A DNA stretch of 64,000 nt, taken from assembly GCF_024228675.1 (NCBI RefSeq), contig NZ_CP100461.1, positions 1,302,001 to 1,366,000 on the forward strand. The letters are read 5' to 3'. Positions within the stretch are counted from its first letter, which is position 1; every line of letters starts with the position of its first letter. Below, one piece after another: positions 37,919-63,473 of the stretch. Position numbers and translations under genes: made by a program. Under the pieces are notes generated by a model. The model had not been told where the DNA came from and made no database searches. It saw only the letters and a list, made by a program, of their open reading frames with translations. The DNA comes from Salinigranum marinum. Lineage in GTDB: Archaea > Halobacteriota > Halobacteria > Halobacteriales > Haloferacaceae.

Positions 37919-38124
37919 GTCTTTCGGCTCCCGGTGACGCCTGTTACTTCTGCGGTCGGCCAAACGGTACGTAAACTTACTCCTCGCGTTATCACGCCTG
38001 ATTATCGCCGAGATGCGTTTATGTATCACACTGTCGAAGCACGGACAGAGATGCGAATCGGATCGTTGGCTCGGCCCCGTTCGAACCGCACCCACCCGGC
38101 TGTGGACCTCAGCCGGAGGTGGCG

Positions 38125-49332: not shown

Positions 49333-50887
49333 TCCCCCCGTCGGCGACGAGCGCCTCTAGCGCGGCCGGATCGGGCTCGTGGCCACCGAGTCGACTCACG
49401 TACGAGAGGCTCGTCTCGTGGTGGTCGACGGCCAGTTGCGCGTGCTGTTCGTCGTCCCGCGGGCTCGCGGCGAGGCGAACGTACGTGTCGAGCTTCGATC
49501 GCACGTCGGCCGAGATCCAGCCGAAGTCCTGGTAGAGCCGAAGCGCGCGGGACGCACCGAGGGGGCCACCGGCCGAGACGAGGAAACGCACCCACTCCAT
49601 CGCGACGGACTCGGCGACGTACGTCGACGGGAGCGTCGAGAGGTGGGCGGCCGAGTCGTCCGCTCTCGCGGCACCCCGCTTCTCCCGTCCGACCTCGTCG
49701 GCACGCTCGGAGTCGGTCCCGGAGTCCGCGGAGTCGGTCCCGGAGTCCGCGGAGCCCGCCCCGGCGTCGTGAAACATCTCGTCGTCGGTCACGGCTTCGG
49801 CCGCCTCGACCGACTCGCGGTCGCCGTCCGGGTCGTGCACGCTGTCGGTGGGTTCGTCTGACACGTCCGCATCAGCCGGTTCGTCGTCCGACTGAACGCT
49901 GACCAGCTCGGATCGACCGGCACCGCTCTCGGGTGCGGCCGTCCCGTCAGCGACCTCGCCGGCACCGTCATCGGGGTCGTCCTCCTCGTCGGTCGCCTCG
50001 GCGTCGCTCTCCTCGTCAGCCGTCTCGGTTGTGACCGCGTCACCGTCGTCCTCGTGGCCGTCGACGGCATCGTCGGCTTCGCCAGCGTCGTCCGCCGCGT
50101 CCTCGTCGGTGTCTTCCCAGCCGTCGCCGTCCTCGTACTCGGCTTTGAGATCGTCGAACGAGACTCCGCCCGTCCCGCCAGTGTCGGCCGCTTCGGCGTC
50201 GGTCGGGTCGGGCTCCTCGTCGAGCATCTCCGGCCCGTCCGGTTCGGCCTCCGCGAGTTCGTCCTCGGCGGCCGCTTCGGCTCGCTCCTCGCCGGTCTCG
50301 GCGTCCAGTTCGCCGAAGTCCTCGTCGAAGAAGCTCTCGGCGTTGGCGTTCGCGACGTCCGGATCGAGGTCGTCCTCATCGTCCTCCTCGGAGTCGAACA
50401 GTCCGAACGCGCCGTCGCCGTGTTCGAGCCCGCCCATCTCCCGGGCGTCGTCGACGAACGGGTTGATGCCGCGGGTGACCATCTCGTAGATGTCGAGGAG
50501 TTTGCGGATCGTATCGTCGAGCTCGTCGACGGTTTCGCCGATCTGTTTGTTCTCCTCGCGGACGGTGTTCATGCTCGACGAGATCGACCCGACCTCGGTC
50601 TCCAGTTCGCCGATGCGGTCCTCGAAGTCCGCGAGCCGCTCGGTGAAGTCGTTTCCGCCGCCGGCTCCGGCTCCGCCCCCGCCCCCGAAGCCGTCGTCGT
50701 CGAGGTCGCCGAACCCGTCGTCGGCGCCGTCCGCGTCGTCGGCCGTAGGGCCGTCGAAGTCGTCGTCGAGGTCGTCGAACTCCTCGTCGAACTCCCCGAG
50801 GTCGTCGAACTCGTCCGTGTCACCGTCCTCGTCGACGTCGCCGGACGCCTCCTCGTCCTCGTCGTTCACCCAGTCCATCATTCCCAT
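49310..50887 (-). CDS. arlCE: Fused ArlCE (FlaC/FlaE) archaellum switch-complex protein
   Basis: A 525-residue fusion. An acidic head is followed by an ArlC coiled-coil (FTERLADFEDRIGELETEV...ENKQIGETVDELDDTI, residues about 85-150). A very acidic linker of about 250 residues leads to an ArlD/E domain (STLPSTYVAESVAMEWVRFLVSAGG region, about 420-500). ArlC, D and E form the ring that receives the CheF-CheY signal. The linker is low complexity and holds a tandem 21-base duplication. The first gene of the operon, it starts at 50887 (MGMMDW; two other Met codons follow closely). The 3' end overlaps arlF by 23 bases. Confidence 0.92.
   Translation of the reverse strand: MGMMDWVNDEDEEASGDVDEDGDTDEFDDLGEFDEEFDDLDDDFDGPTADDADGADDGFGDLDDDGFGGGGGAGAGGGNDFTERLADFEDRIGELETEVGSISSSMNTVREENKQIGETVDELDDTIRKLLDIYEMVTRGINPFVDDAREMGGLEHGDGAFGLFDSEEDDEDDLDPDVANANAESFFDEDFGELDAETGEERAEAAAEDELAEAEPDGPEMLDEEPDPTDAEAADTGGTGGVSFDDLKAEYEDGDGWEDTDEDAADDAGEADDAVDGHEDDGDAVTTETADEESDAEATDEEDDPDDGAGEVADGTAAPESGAGRSELVSVQSDDEPADADVSDEPTDSVHDPDGDRESVEAAEAVTDDEMFHDAGAGSADSGTDSADSGTDSERADEVGREKRGAARADDSAAHLSTLPSTYVAESVAMEWVRFLVSAGGPLGASRALRLYQDFGWISADVRSKLDTYVRLAASPRDDEQHAQLAVDHHETSLSYVSRLGGHEPDPAALEALVADGGSDRGIRR
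49709..49750 (-). repeat. Perfect 21-base tandem duplication in the arlCE linker
   Basis: Bases 49709-49729 and 49730-49750 are identical and code for two copies of a Ser/Asp/Ala/Gly/Thr-rich heptapeptide (DSADSGT). It shows that the linker length can change by slippage in multiples of three. Confidence 0.85.
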
Positions 50888-53798: not shown

Positions 53799-54140
53799 TC
53801 AGTTGTCTTGGGCGATTCGACGCCAGACGTCGTCGAGTTTGTTCTTCACTTCCGGCCGTTCGGTGACGTTGAGAACGAGGTCGTCGTCCTCGAACCGGAC
53901 GTTGATCTCGTCGACCTCACGCCGGTAGACGTTGGTCCGACGGTGTTCGTCGGAGAGAACCCGATCGTGGAGCGTCAACAGCCCGGCCTCGGACAGTTCC
54001 TCGATGCGTCGGTAACAGGTCGCGATGGGGATGTCGAGCAGGTCGCTGAACTCCTGTGCCGAGTGGGGCTGGTGCGCAGAGCGGAGGATATCTGGGTTGT
54101 AATCGTTTCCGAGGGCCGCGAGTGTCCTGTCTGGGTCCAT
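53799..54140 (-). CDS. Winged-helix (ArsR-like) transcriptional regulator
   Basis: A 113-residue protein that is a winged helix throughout. Residues about 25-75 hold the helix-turn-helix and wing (SAQEFSDLLDIPIATCYRRIEELSEAGLLTLHDRV), and the rest is a short beta extension (INVRFEDDDLVLNVTERPE). No metal-binding cysteines are visible. Position just upstream of the archaellins and divergent from the che operon suggests it controls motility genes, which is inference. Confidence 0.85.
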   Translation of the reverse strand: MDPDRTLAALGNDYNPDILRSAHQPHSAQEFSDLLDIPIATCYRRIEELSEAGLLTLHDRVLSDEHRRTNVYRREVDEINVRFEDDDLVLNVTERPEVKNKLDDVWRRIAQDN

Positions 54141-54901: not shown

Positions 54902-55270
54902 ATGGCGAACACAGTGCTGGTGGTCGACGACTCCGCGTTCATGCGGAACCCCCTGAAGCAGCTCCTCGATGGCGAACACGACGTGATCGGAGAGGCCGAA
55001 AACGGCGTCGAGGCCGTCGAACTGTACCGTGAACTGAACCCCGACGTGGTGACGATGGACGTCGTGATGCCGATCAGGAACGGGATCGAGGCGACGACGG
55101 AGATCAAGGAGATCGACCCGGGGTCGTCGGTTATCATGTGTACGAGCGTCGGCCAGGAGGAGAAGATGCGCGAGGCCGTCGAGGCCGGCGCCGACGGCTA
55201 CATCACCAAGCCGTTCCAGAAACCCAACGTCCTGCAGGCGATCGACGACGTGGCGAAGGCGAAGGTATGA
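54902..55270 (+). CDS. cheY: CheY chemotaxis response regulator
   Basis: A 122-residue single-domain receiver. The acidic pocket is Asp9 and Asp10, the phosphorylation site is Asp53 (VVTMDVVMP), Thr81 is the switch residue, and Lys103 is in YITKPF. Phosphorylated by CheA, it signals to the archaellum through CheF. The start at 54902 gives the normal length. Its stop overlaps the cheC start (ATGA). Confidence 0.97.
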   Translation: MANTVLVVDDSAFMRNPLKQLLDGEHDVIGEAENGVEAVELYRELNPDVVTMDVVMPIRNGIEATTEIKEIDPGSSVIMCTSVGQEEKMREAVEAGADGYITKPFQKPNVLQAIDDVAKAKV

Positions 55271-56448
55271 ACCTCGACGTCCACGCGCTCCGGACGTTCA
55301 GTCAGCTGGCACACTCCGGCGCCGAGAAGGCCGCGTGGTCGCTCTCAGAGTTGACTGGGATGGAGACGCGGGTCAACGTGACCAAGATCGAGTTGGAGAC
55401 CGCCACCGACGTCGAGTGTGAGTTCCGTGACAACGACTTCGTGAGCGTCCGGATCGGGTTCAGCGGCGGGCTCGACGGCCGGACGATCCTCGCGTTCGAC
55501 CGCGAGGCAGCGTCGAACGTCGTCGAGGCGATCCTCCCCGGCGGTGCTGGAGGGGACGAACTCGCGACGTCGGGGCTCAAAGAGGTCGGCAACATCATGC
55601 TCGGCGGCTTCATCGACGGCTGGGCGAACCACCTCGAGACCAGCATCGACATCACGACTCCGACCTACCTCGACGTCGACAGCGACGGGCCGCTCGACGG
55701 GTTCGCCGTCGGCGACCGACTGGAGGGCGAAAACGAGCACGTCCTCGTCTTCCGCAACCAGCTCGAAACGACCGCCGACGCGGTGACTTTTTATCTCTAC
55801 ATGGTGCCGACCGCGGGGACGATCGAGACGATCGTCGACACGGCGACCGACGCCGAGGAAGCGGTCCCGATCGAGACGCTCACCACGTTCAGCGACATGA
55901 TCTCCGACGGTGCCGAGCAGGCGTCGGCGGACATCTCGGCGATGACGGGCACGCAGACGGTCGTCGACGTCTCGCGGTTGAGCTTCGTCCCGATCGAGGG
56001 GGTCCCGATGCAGCTCGACGATGCGACCCGCGTCGGCGTCGTCCTCGAGTTCATGGGCGTCCCCAGCGGCTACATCGCCATTCTCTTCGACGAGACCTCC
56101 TCGGAGCAGATCGCCGCGGCGCTGCTCCCGGGCGCGGACGCCGGGGAGGCGATGCGCCAGAGCGCGATACAGGAGATCGGCAACATCATCACGTCGGGTT
56201 TCCTCGATGGCTGGGCCAACCAACTCGAGACGACGATCGAGATCTCCCCGCCACAGTTCGTCCACGACCTCGGTCCGGCGATCATCGACCCCCTGGCCAC
56301 CGAACTCGCCCAGGCGCAGGACTACGCCTTCCTGATCGACTCGACCATCAGGACCGACGACGACGAGTTCACCTGCGACATCTACGCGTTACCGAACGAG
56401 AAGGAGTTGCGCCAGGCGCTCGACCAGCTATCGGCACACCCAGCCTGA
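55267..56448 (+). CDS. cheC: CheC phosphatase, tandem two-domain form
   Basis: A 393-residue protein made of two CheC-like halves (about 1-195 and 200-393). Each half has the phosphatase-type helix: LKEVGNIMLGGFIDGWANHLE in the first and IQEIGNIITSGFLDGWANQLE in the second. CheC removes phosphate from CheY and binds CheD. Single-domain CheC is about 200 residues, so this is the duplicated form known from haloarchaea (CheJ/CheC). In both halves the Glu-x-x-Asn pair is present, so both could be active. It is coupled to cheY and cheD by overlaps. Confidence 0.93.
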   Translation: MNLDVHALRTFSQLAHSGAEKAAWSLSELTGMETRVNVTKIELETATDVECEFRDNDFVSVRIGFSGGLDGRTILAFDREAASNVVEAILPGGAGGDELATSGLKEVGNIMLGGFIDGWANHLETSIDITTPTYLDVDSDGPLDGFAVGDRLEGENEHVLVFRNQLETTADAVTFYLYMVPTAGTIETIVDTATDAEEAVPIETLTTFSDMISDGAEQASADISAMTGTQTVVDVSRLSFVPIEGVPMQLDDATRVGVVLEFMGVPSGYIAILFDETSSEQIAAALLPGADAGEAMRQSAIQEIGNIITSGFLDGWANQLETTIEISPPQFVHDLGPAIIDPLATELAQAQDYAFLIDSTIRTDDDEFTCDIYALPNEKELRQALDQLSAHPA

Positions 56449-56954
56449 TGGAAGTCTACACGAGCGATCCGCCGGCCCGCCGGCGCACCGACCGCATCAA
56501 GGTCGGCATCGCCGACTTCGCGGTCGGCGACAGCGAGAGCCGACTCTCGACGAGTGGGCTCGGCTCCTGTGTCGGGATCGCGCTGTACGACGACCGTGCC
56601 GGGATCAGCGGGCTCGCCCACGCGATGCTCCCGGCCGGGGAGGGCAGAGAGGACGAGGCGAAGTACGTCGACACCGCGGTCCACGCGCTGATCGTGGCGA
56701 TGGAGGGAGCGGGTGCCTCACGGCGTCGGATCCGCGCGAAACTGGCCGGGGGGAGTACGATGTTCGAGTTCGATTCGACCGACGAGAGCGTCGGCGATCG
56801 GAACGTCGCAGCAGCCCGCGAGACGCTCTTGGCGCTCGGAATCCCCATCGATGGCACGGACGTCGGCGGCGACCACGGTCGATCGCTCGAACTCGACGGG
56901 GCAACCGGCGACTTGCACGTCAGGTCGGCCTCGGCCGGCACACATACGCTGTAG
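56448..56954 (+). CDS. cheD: CheD receptor-glutamine deamidase
   Basis: A 168-residue CheD with catalytic triad residues Cys41 (GLGSCVGIALYD), His58 (GLAHAMLP) and Thr104 (GGSTMF). It deamidates transducer glutamines and stimulates CheC. The start overlaps the cheC stop (TGATG). The length is normal. Confidence 0.95.
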   Translation: MEVYTSDPPARRRTDRIKVGIADFAVGDSESRLSTSGLGSCVGIALYDDRAGISGLAHAMLPAGEGREDEAKYVDTAVHALIVAMEGAGASRRRIRAKLAGGSTMFEFDSTDESVGDRNVAAARETLLALGIPIDGTDVGGDHGRSLELDGATGDLHVRSASAGTHTL

Positions 56955-56986
56955 CCAGTATCATAATCGATACTCAGCAGAATAGA

Positions 56987-56994
56987 TTTATACA
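56987..56994 (+). promoter_or_regulatory. TATA-like box for arlD and the actin-like gene
   Basis: TTTATACA lies 49-56 bases before the arlD ATG, giving a leader of about 25 bases. It marks a possible separate transcript arlD-actin-like-membrane protein. Confidence 0.55.
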
Positions 56995-57042: not shown

Positions 57043-57705
57043 ATGAACGTCAACCCCGAAGACTACGACCCGGAGGAGTTGCGGCAGATGGCAGCGGAGC
57101 GACGGGCGGTCGACCGCCCCGAGGGCCGGCGCGGGGACGCCGACGATCCGACTCCACACGCCGACGACACGGGCTCGCGACGCGGGGACGACCCAGCGCC
57201 GCGACACACCGACGAGTCCGCACCGCGACGGAACGGCGTCGACGGCCGCCGCGGACCGCGTGGACGCTTCGGCGGGGGGAGTCGGGTCGGTCCGAGACCC
57301 GACCGTGGGCCCGCGACGAACGGCCGGGGCAACCCGGAGCCGACCCGTGGGCCGGCCGCCGACGCGCTGCGCTCGAACCAGCTCGAACAGCTGTTCCTCC
57401 ACCAGTCCGCGACGATCGCCGAGGAGATGACGAAGCCGTACCTCGGATCGATCCCCCAAAAGTACGCGGCCGAGCGCGTCATCTTCGACTGGCTCGAATT
57501 CCTCGTGCTCAAGGGCGGCTTCAAGCGGACGATGGACGCCCTCCGGTACTACCGGACGATCGACTGGATTACCGAGGACGTCGAGTCGTCGCTCCAAGAC
57601 TACCTGATCGGCTTTTCCGACGAGGGAACAGGCTCGCACGACCTCAACGTCGACGATCACCAGCTCAGTCTCGTGTACGTCGCCCGACTCGCCTCGATGA
57701 GTTAA
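57043..57705 (+). CDS. arlD: ArlD (FlaD) archaellum switch-complex protein
   Basis: A 220-residue protein. The first 115 residues are disordered, rich in Arg, Gly, Asp and Pro and less acidic than most proteins here. Residues about 130-220 are the conserved ArlD/E domain (KPYLGSIPQKYAAERVIFDWLEFLVLKGG, then YYRTIDWITEDVESSLQDYL), clearly related to the C-terminal domain of ArlCE. ArlD joins the cytoplasmic ring of the motor. As in other haloarchaea it is encoded away from arlCE, next to cheD. Confidence 0.92.
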   Translation: MNVNPEDYDPEELRQMAAERRAVDRPEGRRGDADDPTPHADDTGSRRGDDPAPRHTDESAPRRNGVDGRRGPRGRFGGGSRVGPRPDRGPATNGRGNPEPTRGPAADALRSNQLEQLFLHQSATIAEEMTKPYLGSIPQKYAAERVIFDWLEFLVLKGGFKRTMDALRYYRTIDWITEDVESSLQDYLIGFSDEGTGSHDLNVDDHQLSLVYVARLASMS

Positions 57706-57729: not shown

Positions 57730-58866
57730 ATGGCAGACGAAGCGGGTGCAGAACCGACCGACGGTAGCGAGGATGAAGCCGAGAACGAGGAGACCGAAGC
57801 AACGGGCGACGAGTCCGCCGAAGCCGCGTTCGAGGCCGGCGACGGGCCGCTCCCGATCGGGGTGAAACTCGGGAGCACACGGACCGTGATCTACGTGCCC
57901 GAGGAGGACGGCTCCTTGCGCACGGTCAGAACGCTCACGTGTCTCTCGACGTACGACGACCCGCTGACGGGCGAAGAACGCGTCATCTACGGCGAACAGG
58001 CGGCGCGGGAGTACCCCGATCGGGTCCGGTACATGCTCCGCTCGGGGCTCCCCGAGGACGACGAGAACGCGGACCTCGCGAAACAGTTCTTCTCCGAACT
58101 CGTCGACTCACAGGGCATCCCAGAAGAGAGCGCCGTCGTCTACGCGATCCCGACAATCGAGAACGAGGCCGGTCTCGCGAACCTCAGCGCCGTCATCGAG
58201 GAGAGCGGGATCGGCCGGGCGCTCGTCCGCTCGTTCCCCGAGTCGCTCTGTGGGTCGATCCCCGCACTCGGCGACGATCTCGAAGCGATCGACGAGATCT
58301 TCCTCGCGGTGAACATGGGATCGACGAATCTCGAAGCCTGCGCGTACCGTCACGGCGAACAGTTGTCGCCCTTCTCGACGGGCTCGGTCACCGGCAACGA
58401 GGTCGATCGACGGATCGCGAACGCGGTCGAAGAGGAGACCCAAGGACGGGTCAATATCGACCGGACCACCGCCCGCGAGTACAAGGAAGAACACGGCGAC
58501 TTCGCGGCGTTCGAGCCGTTCACGGACGTCATCCAACAGCCCGGCGGCGGGAGCCACGAGTTCACGATCGAGCGCTCGGTGATGGATCCGCTCGACGACT
58601 ACGTCGACGAGGTCGTCGACGAGGTGGCGAACGAGTTCCTCTCCGAGTTGGCGAACAGCCACATGAAGCCCTACCAGATCGCGCTGTCACGGCCGATCGC
58701 CGTGACGGGTGGGATGGCCTGCATCCCCGGGATCGTCTCGGAGTTCGAGACCCGCCTCGGCGAGGAACTGAACCGGGAGGTCGAAGCGACGGCCCCGGAG
58801 CGACCCGACCTCGCGGCCGCACAGGGCGCACAGCGAATCGCGACCCGGCTCGCAGAGCGCCTATAA
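57730..58866 (+). CDS. Actin/MreB-like ATPase next to arlD
   Basis: A 378-residue protein with an acidic disordered head (1-40) and an actin-fold body. Landmarks are the first phosphate loop GVKLGSTRTVIYV near residue 44, the second one LAVNMGSTNLEACAY at about 192-206 (Asn replaces the usual Asp) and the adenosine loop VTGGMACIPG near 325. Haloarchaea have actin relatives such as salactin and volactin, and this could be one of them or a further family. It follows arlD by 24 bases and is six bases before a membrane protein gene, so all three are likely one operon. A role in placing or shaping the motility machinery is inference. Confidence 0.8.
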   Translation: MADEAGAEPTDGSEDEAENEETEATGDESAEAAFEAGDGPLPIGVKLGSTRTVIYVPEEDGSLRTVRTLTCLSTYDDPLTGEERVIYGEQAAREYPDRVRYMLRSGLPEDDENADLAKQFFSELVDSQGIPEESAVVYAIPTIENEAGLANLSAVIEESGIGRALVRSFPESLCGSIPALGDDLEAIDEIFLAVNMGSTNLEACAYRHGEQLSPFSTGSVTGNEVDRRIANAVEEETQGRVNIDRTTAREYKEEHGDFAAFEPFTDVIQQPGGGSHEFTIERSVMDPLDDYVDEVVDEVANEFLSELANSHMKPYQIALSRPIAVTGGMACIPGIVSEFETRLGEELNREVEATAPERPDLAAAQGAQRIATRLAERL

Positions 58867-58872
58867 CGACCG

Positions 58873-59643
58873 ATGGGCTCCGACGTCGACACGGACCCCG
58901 AGGCCGACGCCGACGTCCCGACCGACCGCTCACAGGACACGCCAGACGGATCGAGGGAGCGACCGACTGACCCCGCGTCGTTCGTCTGGAGCACGGACCT
59001 GTCGGCCACAGAGACCGAGGCCGACGCCGAACCGGAATCCGAGCCTGAGCCCGAGTCCGAAGCAGCGCTCTCGCCCACCCGCTACCTCCTCGCCGGCGAG
59101 GCGATCACGGAGCGGATCGACGTCGGGCGCGGCTGGGTCGTCGCGACGACCCACCGCGTGCTGGTGTACGACCCCGCCGCCGCCGGGACCCGGTTCACCT
59201 CGATCGACCGGCCGAACGTCGTCGGCGTGGGGACGACGGGCGGCGGGAACGCGACGGTCCTCGGGTACGTCTCGCGGGCGGTCGTCTACGCCGTCTTGCT
59301 CCTCGGCAGCGGCCTCGTCGCCCGGTCGTTCGGCCTGCGCTCGCTGTTCAGTGTGAGCTCCGGCGCGGCGGAGACGCCCGGGGTCGGCGGCCTGCTGTCG
59401 TTCCTGTCGCTCGCCGGCACGCTCTTGGGCCTGTTCGTCGACGCGCTCATCCTTGGAGGGGTCGTCGCCGGCCTCGTGGCGGTCGCGCTCGCCGTCTGGT
59501 ATCTCCGGGGTCGGCAGCCGACCCTCGTGGTCGAACGCGCCGGCGACGACGACGTGACGATCCGCCTCCCGTCCGCGGCCGCCGGCCAACGGGCCGTCGG
59601 GCGACTCGAACGGGAACTGGCCGACGAACTCGCCGTCTCCTAG
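58873..59643 (+). CDS. Membrane protein with acidic head and PH-like segments, unknown function
   Basis: A 256-residue protein. A disordered acidic head of about 75 residues (Asp/Glu/Pro) is followed by a beta segment (YLLAGEAITERIDVGRGWVVATTHRVLVYD) like the start of bacterial PH domains. Two or three membrane helices (about 125-215) and a closing beta segment (TLVVERAGDDDVTIRLPS) come next. The split PH-like pattern around a membrane hairpin is unusual. Six bases separate it from the actin-like gene, so it may be a membrane partner of it. Confidence 0.7.
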   Translation: MGSDVDTDPEADADVPTDRSQDTPDGSRERPTDPASFVWSTDLSATETEADAEPESEPEPESEAALSPTRYLLAGEAITERIDVGRGWVVATTHRVLVYDPAAAGTRFTSIDRPNVVGVGTTGGGNATVLGYVSRAVVYAVLLLGSGLVARSFGLRSLFSVSSGAAETPGVGGLLSFLSLAGTLLGLFVDALILGGVVAGLVAVALAVWYLRGRQPTLVVERAGDDDVTIRLPSAAAGQRAVGRLERELADELAVS

Positions 59644-61238: not shown

Positions 61239-63356
61239 CTAGTCCGTCGACACAGTCGAGGAGGCCGACGACACCGTCTCCGTCTCGGTCGCGTGCTGGG
61301 GCGACGTCTCCCGGAGGCGGATCCGGACGACCGCCCCGCGCGGGTCGTTCTCCTCGAAGTCGAGGTGCCCGTTCGACCGGGTGACGATCCACTGTGTCAG
61401 CCAGAGACCGAGGCCGCTGCCGTGGCTTAGTGGGGTCTCGATCCCCTCGGTGAAGACGCGTCGTTCGGACTCGGGGATGCCCGGTCCGTTGTCGGCGACG
61501 CGCACCTCGACGTACTCGATCCCATCGTGGACGACGGGCTCGATCTCGACTGCGACCTGCGGGACGACGCGGTCGTTGTGTTCGATGGCGTTGTCGACGA
61601 CGTTCAACAGCGCGGACTCGACGAGGTCGTCGGCGAGCACCCACTGCTCGTCGGGGAGTTCTCGGCTGACGATCGCCCCGGGGAACTCCGCCTGGATGGC
61701 GTCGAGCCGGTCGTGGATCGGATCCGTGATCTCGACGGGCTTCTTGACGCCGTCGGTGCTGTGGAGCGTGTAGTCGATCTTGCGCGTCTGCTCGCCGAGG
61801 TCGACGAGCGTCTCGGCCTTTCGGCGAATGACCTGAGCGTGCTCTTTCGCCTCGGCCGTGACGCCCTCGCCGAGGAGGAGATCCGCGTGTCCCTGAATGA
61901 CGTTCACCTCGTTCCGCAGGTCGTGACGGAGTACCCGGTTGAGCACGCGGAGCCGCTGCTCGTAGCGACGACGACCGGTCACGTCGCGCGCGTTCACCAC
62001 GACCCCTTCGACCGTGGGGTCGTCGACGAGGTTGACGCCGACCGCCTCGAACGTCCGCCAGGAGCCGTCGACGTGACGGGCGCGGTATTCGATCCTGGCC
62101 TGTGCGCCGCAGCCGTCCGCGACGAGTTCCTCGAACGCCTCGCGGGTCGCCGTGCGGTCGTCGGGGTGGACCAACTCGAACGCGTCACGACCGACGAGGT
62201 CGTCGGGGTCGTAACCGAGGACGCGCTCGGACGAGGGCGCACAGTAGGTCCGCGTTCCGTCGGGACCGAGCACCGTGATGAGGTCCCGGGAGTTCTCGAT
62301 GAGCGCGCGGAACTCCGCCTCGGCGTGGCGACGCTCGGTGACGTCGCGCAGGACCAGCAGATGCCCCTGTTCGTACTCCCGCTGGCCGTCGAAGCGGCTC
62401 GCCGTCGCCTCGAAGAAGCGCCGCTGACCCTCGCCGTCGATCACGAACTCCTCGCGGTCCGCCTCGCCGTCGACGAGTCGACGGAGCGACGGGCCGTACT
62501 CGGGAACCTCCGACAGCGACTCGCCGAGGAGCGCTCCCTCGGCGGTGTCGAAGATCCGTCTGGCTCGGGGGTTCGTCTCGACCACCCGACCGCGGTCGTC
62601 GACGACGACCACCCCGTCGCGGAGTTGCCCGACCACGGCGTCGCGGGCGATCGGGTTGATGTCGAACAGTTGGTGCCGGTAGAGCCCGACGAGTACGGTC
62701 ACGGAGGAGACACCGAACGACACGGGCGTGAGCCCGACACCGCGCGTCGACCCTGGGGTGACCACGGTCGCGCCGAGGGCGGCGAGCGGGACGATCGAGG
62801 CGACCAGGACGACGACGGTCTGCCGTCGGTAGAGTCGGCGCGAGCGCGTGAGCAGGTGGACCAGAACGGCGAGTCCGACGACCACGAGCACGAGGGAGTA
62901 CACCGTGTGGAAGACGAGCAGCGGGCCAGTGACCGCCGACGTTAGCCGTGTCGTGACGGGCGTTCCGGCGGCGAACGAGAGCAGGTCGGCGCTCCCGTCG
63001 GAGAGCACGACCGCGACGACGACCGCGGGTTCGACCAGCGAGAGCGCGACGGTCGGGGGGGTGAGGAGGTCCTCGAACCCGGCGTACGAGAGGACGAAGA
63101 GGAACCAGAACGTCGCGAGCGGGGCAGCCCCGAGCCACACGACGCGGGCCCAAAACGACGACCCGTCGGCGGGGGCTAACAGGAGGTGAAAGCCGTACGC
63201 GGTCGCCCACACGGCGGCCGCGAGCGTAGCGGCGGCGAACGCCAGCGGGATCTGTTGGGTGTAGCTCCGGACGCGACCGAGGACCGCGATGGCCGTCGCT
63301 GCCGACACGACGCCCGCCGCGAACAGCGCGGCTGCGTACACCACGTCCGTGGTCAT
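61239..63356 (-). CDS. 7TM-PAS-PAS sensor histidine kinase
   Basis: A 705-residue sensor kinase. Seven membrane segments occupy about residues 5-220 (the histidine-kinase N-terminal 7TM region). Two PAS domains follow, at about 235-345 (VVVDDRGRVVETNPRARRIF) and 350-465 (LITVLGPDGTRTYCAPSSERVLGY). The H box is VLRHDLRNEVNVI with His near residue 478. The ATPase domain has NVVDNAIEHND, VADNGPGIP and GSGLGLWL. This architecture is typical of haloarchaea. Signal and target are unknown; no regulator is adjacent. Confidence 0.93.
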   Translation of the reverse strand: MTTDVVYAAALFAAGVVSAATAIAVLGRVRSYTQQIPLAFAAATLAAAVWATAYGFHLLLAPADGSSFWARVVWLGAAPLATFWFLFVLSYAGFEDLLTPPTVALSLVEPAVVVAVVLSDGSADLLSFAAGTPVTTRLTSAVTGPLLVFHTVYSLVLVVVGLAVLVHLLTRSRRLYRRQTVVVLVASIVPLAALGATVVTPGSTRGVGLTPVSFGVSSVTVLVGLYRHQLFDINPIARDAVVGQLRDGVVVVDDRGRVVETNPRARRIFDTAEGALLGESLSEVPEYGPSLRRLVDGEADREEFVIDGEGQRRFFEATASRFDGQREYEQGHLLVLRDVTERRHAEAEFRALIENSRDLITVLGPDGTRTYCAPSSERVLGYDPDDLVGRDAFELVHPDDRTATREAFEELVADGCGAQARIEYRARHVDGSWRTFEAVGVNLVDDPTVEGVVVNARDVTGRRRYEQRLRVLNRVLRHDLRNEVNVIQGHADLLLGEGVTAEAKEHAQVIRRKAETLVDLGEQTRKIDYTLHSTDGVKKPVEITDPIHDRLDAIQAEFPGAIVSRELPDEQWVLADDLVESALLNVVDNAIEHNDRVVPQVAVEIEPVVHDGIEYVEVRVADNGPGIPESERRVFTEGIETPLSHGSGLGLWLTQWIVTRSNGHLDFEENDPRGAVVRIRLRETSPQHATETETVSSASSTVSTD

Positions 63357-63455: not shown

Positions 63456-63473
63456 GGTATCGCCTCTGATACC
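63456..63473. other. Inverted repeat between the kinase and acyl-CoA dehydrogenase genes
   Basis: GGTATC-GCCTCT-GATACC, 6-base arms with a 6-base loop, in a 188-base gap. An AT-rich stretch (ACAATTAAAA, about 63436-63445) lies beside it. It may end the upstream gene or serve the kinase promoter. Confidence 0.35.

Follow-up and report, generated by a model that had tools for sequence, protein, structure and literature searches.

What is an actin-like ATPase doing directly behind arlD, a gene of the archaellum motor? Within the window, by which we mean the whole 64,000-nucleotide stretch of DNA analysed here, a first-pass annotation had placed an actin-like open reading frame behind arlD and a membrane protein frame six bases after it. 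It had guessed that the two supply a filament and a membrane anchor that position the polar motility machinery or couple it to cell shape. Both placements are confirmed. The actin-like protein is salactin, the best-studied haloarchaeal actin; what is new is not salactin itself, a known protein, but its wiring to arlD.

Identity of the actin-like protein

The protein is matched over its full length by PF25229 (Salactin) at 610 bits, against a cut-off of 27.1, and by the NCBIfam salactin equivalog NF053533 at 599 bits, against a cut-off of 400. Matches so far above the cut-offs rule out a new actin family and show that the first-pass annotation, which had set the protein apart from salactin, was mistaken: the protein is salactin, known to form filaments in haloarchaea. 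The annotation had the fold right. In the AlphaFold2 model (pLDDT 87, pTM 0.83), the predicted fold is that of actin, with MamK and MreB as matches among solved structures at Z of about 31 over about 310 residues. An Asp/Glu-rich N-terminal tail (about residues 1-33), with the pLDDT below 50 of a disordered segment, precedes the actin-fold ATPase. The genome carries a single copy by a genome-wide family search, and a search for a plasmid or viral origin found no relatives among plasmid records or viral contigs.

Is the nucleotide site unusual? In phosphate loop 2 Asn stands in place of the usual Asp (N195 of the 378-residue protein), as had been noticed at first pass; in phosphate loop 1, Lys also replaces the usual Asp (K46). 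The Asn is no peculiarity of the window protein, for the Lys/Asn pair is invariant in the complete salactins examined, 60/60 from haloarchaea and 13/13 from other archaea. The H. salinarum protein is an active ATPase and forms polymers (PMC10746226). Since it belongs to the same family, the Asn predicts neither a dead nor an altered enzyme in the window, and there is no reason to expect the change in ATP turnover that had been suggested.

A three-gene unit and its regulatory site

The genes for ArlD, salactin and the membrane protein lie in a row on one strand (Table 1), with 24 nt between arlD and the salactin ATG at 57730 and 6 nt between salactin and the membrane frame. The stand-alone ArlD is encoded once in the genome, and the second PF04659 match (49385-49654) lies inside the ArlCE gene. 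Between cheD and arlD, a spacer of 88 nt carries a CsmR-type site and then TTTATA. Judged by this layout, the unit likely has its own promoter, separate from cheC/cheD. A small HTH protein encoded beside the archaellin genes is placed like CsmR, its size and position resembling what has been described for H. volcanii CsmR (PMC13286277).

Table 1. Features in and around the arlD-salactin unit of the window
Feature	Coordinates	Strand	Basis
Small HTH protein placed like CsmR, beside archaellin genes	53799..54140	-	PF12840 37.7 bits
cheC-type gene	55267..56448	+	PF04509 82 bits, PF13690 69 bits
cheD, last gene 5' of the arlD-salactin-membrane-protein unit	56448..56954	+	PF03975 96 bits
Putative CsmR-type operator TATCATAATCGATA	56959..56972	+	one mismatch to TATCA-N4-TGATA; 70 nt before arlD start codon
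TATA-like element TTTATA, directly 3' of the CsmR-type site	56987..56992	+	sequence
arlD, archaellum motor/switch protein	57043..57705	+	PF04659 94 bits
Salactin gene, 378 aa	57730..58866	+	PF25229, NF053533, AF2 model, MamK/MreB structural matches
Membrane protein, 256 aa, acidic tail and predicted split PH domain	58873..59643	+	AF2 model, structural matches

In H. volcanii, a 2026 study described the CsmR motif as TATCA-N4-TGATA, found TATA boxes adjoining CsmR sites, and listed the 'ArlD/HVO_1202' unit among those of the archaellum and chemotaxis that go up when csmR is mutated (PMC13286277). By our reasoning HVO_1202 is probably the salactin of H. volcanii, since all six distinct Haloferax salactins examined adjoin arlD and the H. 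volcanii genome has a salactin match. In the literature search, HVO_1202 was mentioned without identification and no report linked salactin with arlD.

How far does the site extend? The window holds 8 CsmR-type sites with at most 2 mismatches, against 2.2 expected, among them sites beside cheY (54843), near the start of the ArlCE gene (51059), beside the archaellins (53553) and before arlD (56959). Across the family of the window, a site with at most one mismatch accompanies arlD in 40 of 62 pairs, on a background of 0.02 per region; these pairs were drawn from overlapping locus sets and are not 62 independent species. The site reads TCTCA-N4-TGATA, with a varying spacer, in Halorubrum, whose pair is distant from the archaellum cluster. 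At the same threshold, the Haloarcula-side family has the site in 0/49 pairs. Only in window-family genomes, then, is the arlD-salactin pair tied to the archaellum and chemotaxis units by a common regulatory site. As a universal feature the site is ruled out, being absent on the Haloarcula side and also before unlinked salactins, except for two-mismatch sites in one genus.

Two further sites in the window, each with one mismatch, deserve mention. One (63458-63471) lies about 100 nt upstream of a 7TM-PAS histidine kinase gene (61239-63356, minus strand), which from this position may belong to the motility regulon; the other (37990-38003) lies just before an open reading frame that starts at 38013, in the chemotaxis region.

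Adjacency of arlD and salactin across haloarchaea

Is the pairing peculiar to this genome? The class sample gave 61 loci from 116 genomes, with one locus missing and the window added; a further 80 named loci were included, and removal of duplicates left 127 distinct haloarchaeal salactin genes. An arlD gene is the immediate neighbour of salactin in 105 of these, is not in 20, and in 2 the contig ends; in 101 it lies directly upstream on the same strand. Two loci agree in the identity of a neighbour with a probability of 0.67 for the gene just before salactin and of 0.014 to 0.087 for the other seven positions within four genes. Adjacency to arlD thus exceeds general synteny, with most salactins paired while the other positions are shuffled. 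The salactin study had found gene order around salactin to be poorly kept, even among Halobacterium, and had proposed a role in DNA partitioning (PMC10746226).

The pair occurs in Halorubrum, Haloferax, Haloarcula, Halobellus, Haloplanus, Halobaculum, Halorientalis, Halomicrobium, Natronomonas, Halocatena and many other genera. (The last of these cost us a prospective outgroup: Actinarchaeum halophilum was dropped, its taxonomy being Halocatena halophila, a haloarchaeon.) In the window genus and Haloferax the pair belongs to the arl/che cluster; elsewhere, for example in Halorubrum (605774 vs 1400712 in G006) and Haloarcula, it is distant from the ArlCE gene. Order and orientation vary among loci while adjacency persists. 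Haloferax mucosum has two diverged salactins on two contigs (L070, L098), each with an arlD of its own, one upstream and one downstream. Loci without the pair include all five from g18, a genus that we take to be Halobacterium-like, and those of g36, g42 and part of Natronomonas and Halovenus. No hidden ArlD was found beside the unpaired salactins; their neighbours are unrelated, many of them housekeeping genes, and the PF04659 matches lie elsewhere.

Dependence of salactin on ArlD

Is salactin also tied to ArlD by presence and absence? In the class sample, PF04659 is absent from 24 of the 116 genomes, none of which has salactin, and salactin is present in 60 of the 92 genomes with PF04659. 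Within the family of the window (138 genomes), 9 genomes have no PF04659 match and 8 have only a long ArlCE-type match; salactin is missing from all 17 and intact in 108 of about 120 with ArlD. A Fisher test of this co-occurrence, in which one ambiguous genome was scored as having no ArlD, gives 5e-15; it makes no correction for ancestry, and a single deletion can remove two neighbouring genes, so that the value is support rather than proof. Among the 116 Halobacteria and the 138 family genomes salactin is therefore confined to genomes bearing PF04659, a rule that some non-haloarchaea break.

The dependence is one-sided. ArlD occurs without salactin in 12 genomes of the window family, and 32 of the 92 archaellated genomes of the class sample, including all of family f4, are without salactin. 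In one genome without archaellins (G343) salactin and its adjacent arlD are both broken, and another (G319) retains arlD beside a remnant of salactin. In the Haloplanus group, two genomes keep the pair intact where the archaellin is interrupted by stops (G358, L188) or was not found (G353, L189), which could reflect recent decay or a function beyond swimming.

The membrane protein and other downstream proteins

Does the membrane protein anchor the filament? It has three hydrophobic segments by hydropathy, and profile searches gave no named family above cut-off and no match to a Pfam PH family. In the AlphaFold2 model, residues about 64-124 and 215-256 form a predicted PH domain, interrupted by a helical hairpin over the hydrophobic segments. 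Chains with the PH fold head the structural matches, the best at Z 9.8, for a model of modest confidence (pLDDT 75) whose Foldseek E is 0.014 at best. The gene lies 3' of salactin in 14 of the loci read, which come from the window genus (three of four species), G081, Halobaculum, g6, part of Natronomonas and one MAG, and relatives of the protein are also found in genomes without salactin.

One genome of the window genus (G405, L181:6755-8453) has lost salactin and retains an intact arlD and the membrane protein gene; the frame behind its arlD appears to join the acidic 5' end of salactin to the membrane gene. Found in a minority of genera and kept in G405 without salactin, the membrane protein is ruled out as a general salactin partner, and the membrane anchor imagined at first pass is weakened by these same distributions. 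Since G405 keeps arlD and the membrane gene in the absence of salactin, the protein may serve ArlD as well as salactin. Conservation of the order arlD-actin-membrane gene had been proposed as a check on the idea: the arlD-actin part is conserved (adjacent in 105/127), and the membrane gene follows only in some genera.

On the Haloarcula side, a different large protein is encoded directly 3' of salactin in 34 of 140 loci (for example L041, L043, L047 and L123). In the L041 member, the bacterial PH domain PF14470 scores 24.6 bits against a cut-off of 23, and helical repeats come after it. The gene stays 3' of salactin even in g36, whose salactins have no arlD beside them.

Salactin outside haloarchaea

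Salactin also occurs in other archaeal classes, and in the 13 non-haloarchaeal loci read it is never beside a PF04659 gene; five non-haloarchaeal genomes (G132, G144, G216, G263, G165) have salactin without any PF04659 gene. In f13 and f31 genomes, which we guess to be Archaeoglobi-like, genes for salactin, a coiled-coil protein and a MinD-like ATPase, so labelled from 112 bits to an archaeal MinD model that lie below its cut-off, stand in a row in 8 loci (L199, L200, L201, L203, L204, L206, L207, L208). The row in L199 is preceded by genes for a PilB/ArlI-like ATPase, a T2SSF membrane protein and a protein that looks pilin-like. In f17 genomes, at a guess Methanocella-like, a prepilin/preflagellin peptidase is encoded 3' of salactin in at least two of four (L195, with 101 bits to PF06847, and L197), and a secreted repeat protein precedes salactin in both. 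Time and again, then, the genes around salactin point towards spatial ATPases and the machines of type IV filaments, among which archaella count.

What might salactin do for the archaellum?

The link of the arlD-salactin pair to the archaellum is well supported, and neither the gene pair nor the regulatory link is reported in the literature found. What kind of link is it? In H. salinarum, salactin filaments grow from polar foci and then collapse, showing dynamic instability (PMC10746226). ArlD is required for archaella in H. volcanii, where it is polar and forms small foci that move discontinuously, sometimes between the poles (PMC6509185), and the polar placement of ArlD/archaella and of chemosensory foci is affected by MinD4 and MinD2 (PMC11588486). 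A role of some kind for salactin in the polar motility programme is probable. The polar-motility guess made at first pass gains support from the pair, from the ArlD dependence and from the CsmR-type site upstream of arlD; a role in cell shape is not indicated, as H. salinarum without salactin forms normal rods in exponential rich medium and misshapen cells only in low phosphate (PMC10746226).

Given the pair, the ArlD dependence and the co-regulation, the simplest reading is that salactin handles the ArlD-bearing motor. To its more specific form, in which salactin is a dynamic polar filament that places this motor or passes it on, we assign a probability of about 0.45; the mechanism is one that we infer. 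Salactin would be expressed with arlD and the PH-domain membrane protein from one promoter with a CsmR-type site, and would act together with the base of the polar archaellum, which bears ArlD. Its ATP-driven filaments would grow from the pole and collapse, with an ArlD-containing motor or pre-motor complex as the cargo or anchor to which they would bind. Alongside the MinD4/MinD2 system, the filament would help to place motors at the pole and, before the cell divides, to pass them on to the new pole. If salactin and MinD4 are redundant, that would account for an H. salinarum deletion that swarms normally; that species group is also one in which the pair has been broken up. More tentative is the fullest version, in which salactin is a filament for the positioning and inheritance of archaella that carries the motor, through ArlD, to or between the poles, and in which its original role was the spatial control of type IV filament machines, a role that non-haloarchaeal relatives beside MinD-like ATPases and type IV pilus genes would still display.

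Several observations count against placement of the motor: the H. salinarum deletion has no soft-agar defect (an assay that by itself would not reveal misplaced archaella), about a third of the archaellated genomes (32/92) do without salactin, non-haloarchaeal salactins occur without PF04659, G358 and G353 hold the pair without intact archaellins, and co-deletion of neighbours could account for part of the co-loss. The main rival is that salactin is a DNA-partitioning filament, and that arlD shares its unit through a common cell state (growing, motile, polarised rods) and through polar nucleation. The clear phenotype of the H. salinarum deletion is uneven DNA and poor viability in low phosphate; its motility in soft agar is unchanged (PMC10746226). 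The non-haloarchaeal salactins without ArlD, operonic with an ATPase of the MinD/ParA type, a family able to partition DNA, also suit this explanation, as do the two Haloplanus-group genomes with the pair and no intact archaellin. Its authors called the partitioning role not definitive (PMC10746226). It leaves unexplained why arlD is the specific partner and why ArlD and salactin are absent together in 17/17 genomes, and 56 of the 116 complete haloarchaeal genomes, which must also partition their DNA, lack salactin. We consider it unlikely as the whole account, though both roles could hold for one polar filament.

Alternatively, might salactin be another kind of archaellum accessory, an actin-fold ATPase for motor assembly or switching that would sit at the ArlCDE ring much as PilM does in its own machine? 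Pairing with arlD, whose product has been placed in the cytosolic switch complex (PMC6509185), would suit such a part, as would the type IV pilus or prepilin peptidase genes beside salactin outside haloarchaea. Long polar filaments with dynamic instability (PMC10746226) are unlike a fixed motor part, however, a part needed for torque or switching is hard to square with a deletion that swarms normally, and many archaellated genomes manage without salactin; we regard this alternative as improbable. Least credible is chance followed by inertia, an ancestral pair of neighbours never broken and without functional link, which accords with a rough salactin tree (an ancestral haloarchaeal pair, several later separations) but not with the shuffling of every other neighbour, the occurrence of the pair both within the arl/che cluster and far away, the adjacency kept through changes of order and orientation, or the CsmR-type site kept in Halorubrum with a varying spacer.

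Why would motor placement by salactin matter? It would tie an actin cytoskeleton to archaellum placement, and the link could be tested with existing H. volcanii tools (ArlD-GFP, minD mutants and csmR mutants). The role of salactin had been inferred partly from a Halobacterium neighbourhood that carries little signal, while in most other haloarchaea there is a clear and distinct signal, arlD.

Comparison with known systems

The window protein and H. salinarum salactin (VNG0153C, PMC10746226) share PF25229/NF053533, the actin fold, the acidic N-terminal tail and the phosphate-loop Lys and Asn. Unlike its H. salinarum counterpart, the window gene forms a unit with arlD, beside chemotaxis genes and behind a CsmR-type site. 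DNA replication and repair genes have been described near Halobacterium salactin (PMC10746226), and in the Halobacterium-like loci examined salactin is not beside arlD and the PH-domain membrane protein is absent nearby. Volactin (HVO_2015, PMC10869688) is likewise a haloarchaeal actin with dynamic filaments, but it affects disk shape and belongs to a different family; its model PF25216 reaches 21.2 bits with the C-terminal part of the window protein, below the cut-off of 35. Under the accessory alternative, PilM of bacterial type IV pili would be comparable to salactin in place, not in sequence.

MamK is an actin that positions magnetosomes, and its genes have no link to archaella. Among solved structures it is the best relative of the window protein by sequence profile (5ljv, E 1.6e-4) and ties for best by fold (Z 31.1), although the MamK model NF040964 gives 40.2 bits, below its cut-off of 400. 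The salactin paper also named MamK the closest subfamily (PMC10746226). In the alignment MamK retains Asp at the two positions where salactin has its signature Lys and Asn, and H. salinarum salactin hydrolyses ATP without either Asp. MinD4/MinD2 of H. volcanii (PMC11588486) form a polar positioning system, built on a ParA/MinD-family ATPase and not on an actin. No MinD gene was noted beside salactin in the haloarchaeal loci, whereas in the non-haloarchaeal relatives MinD-like ATPases stand in operons with salactin itself.
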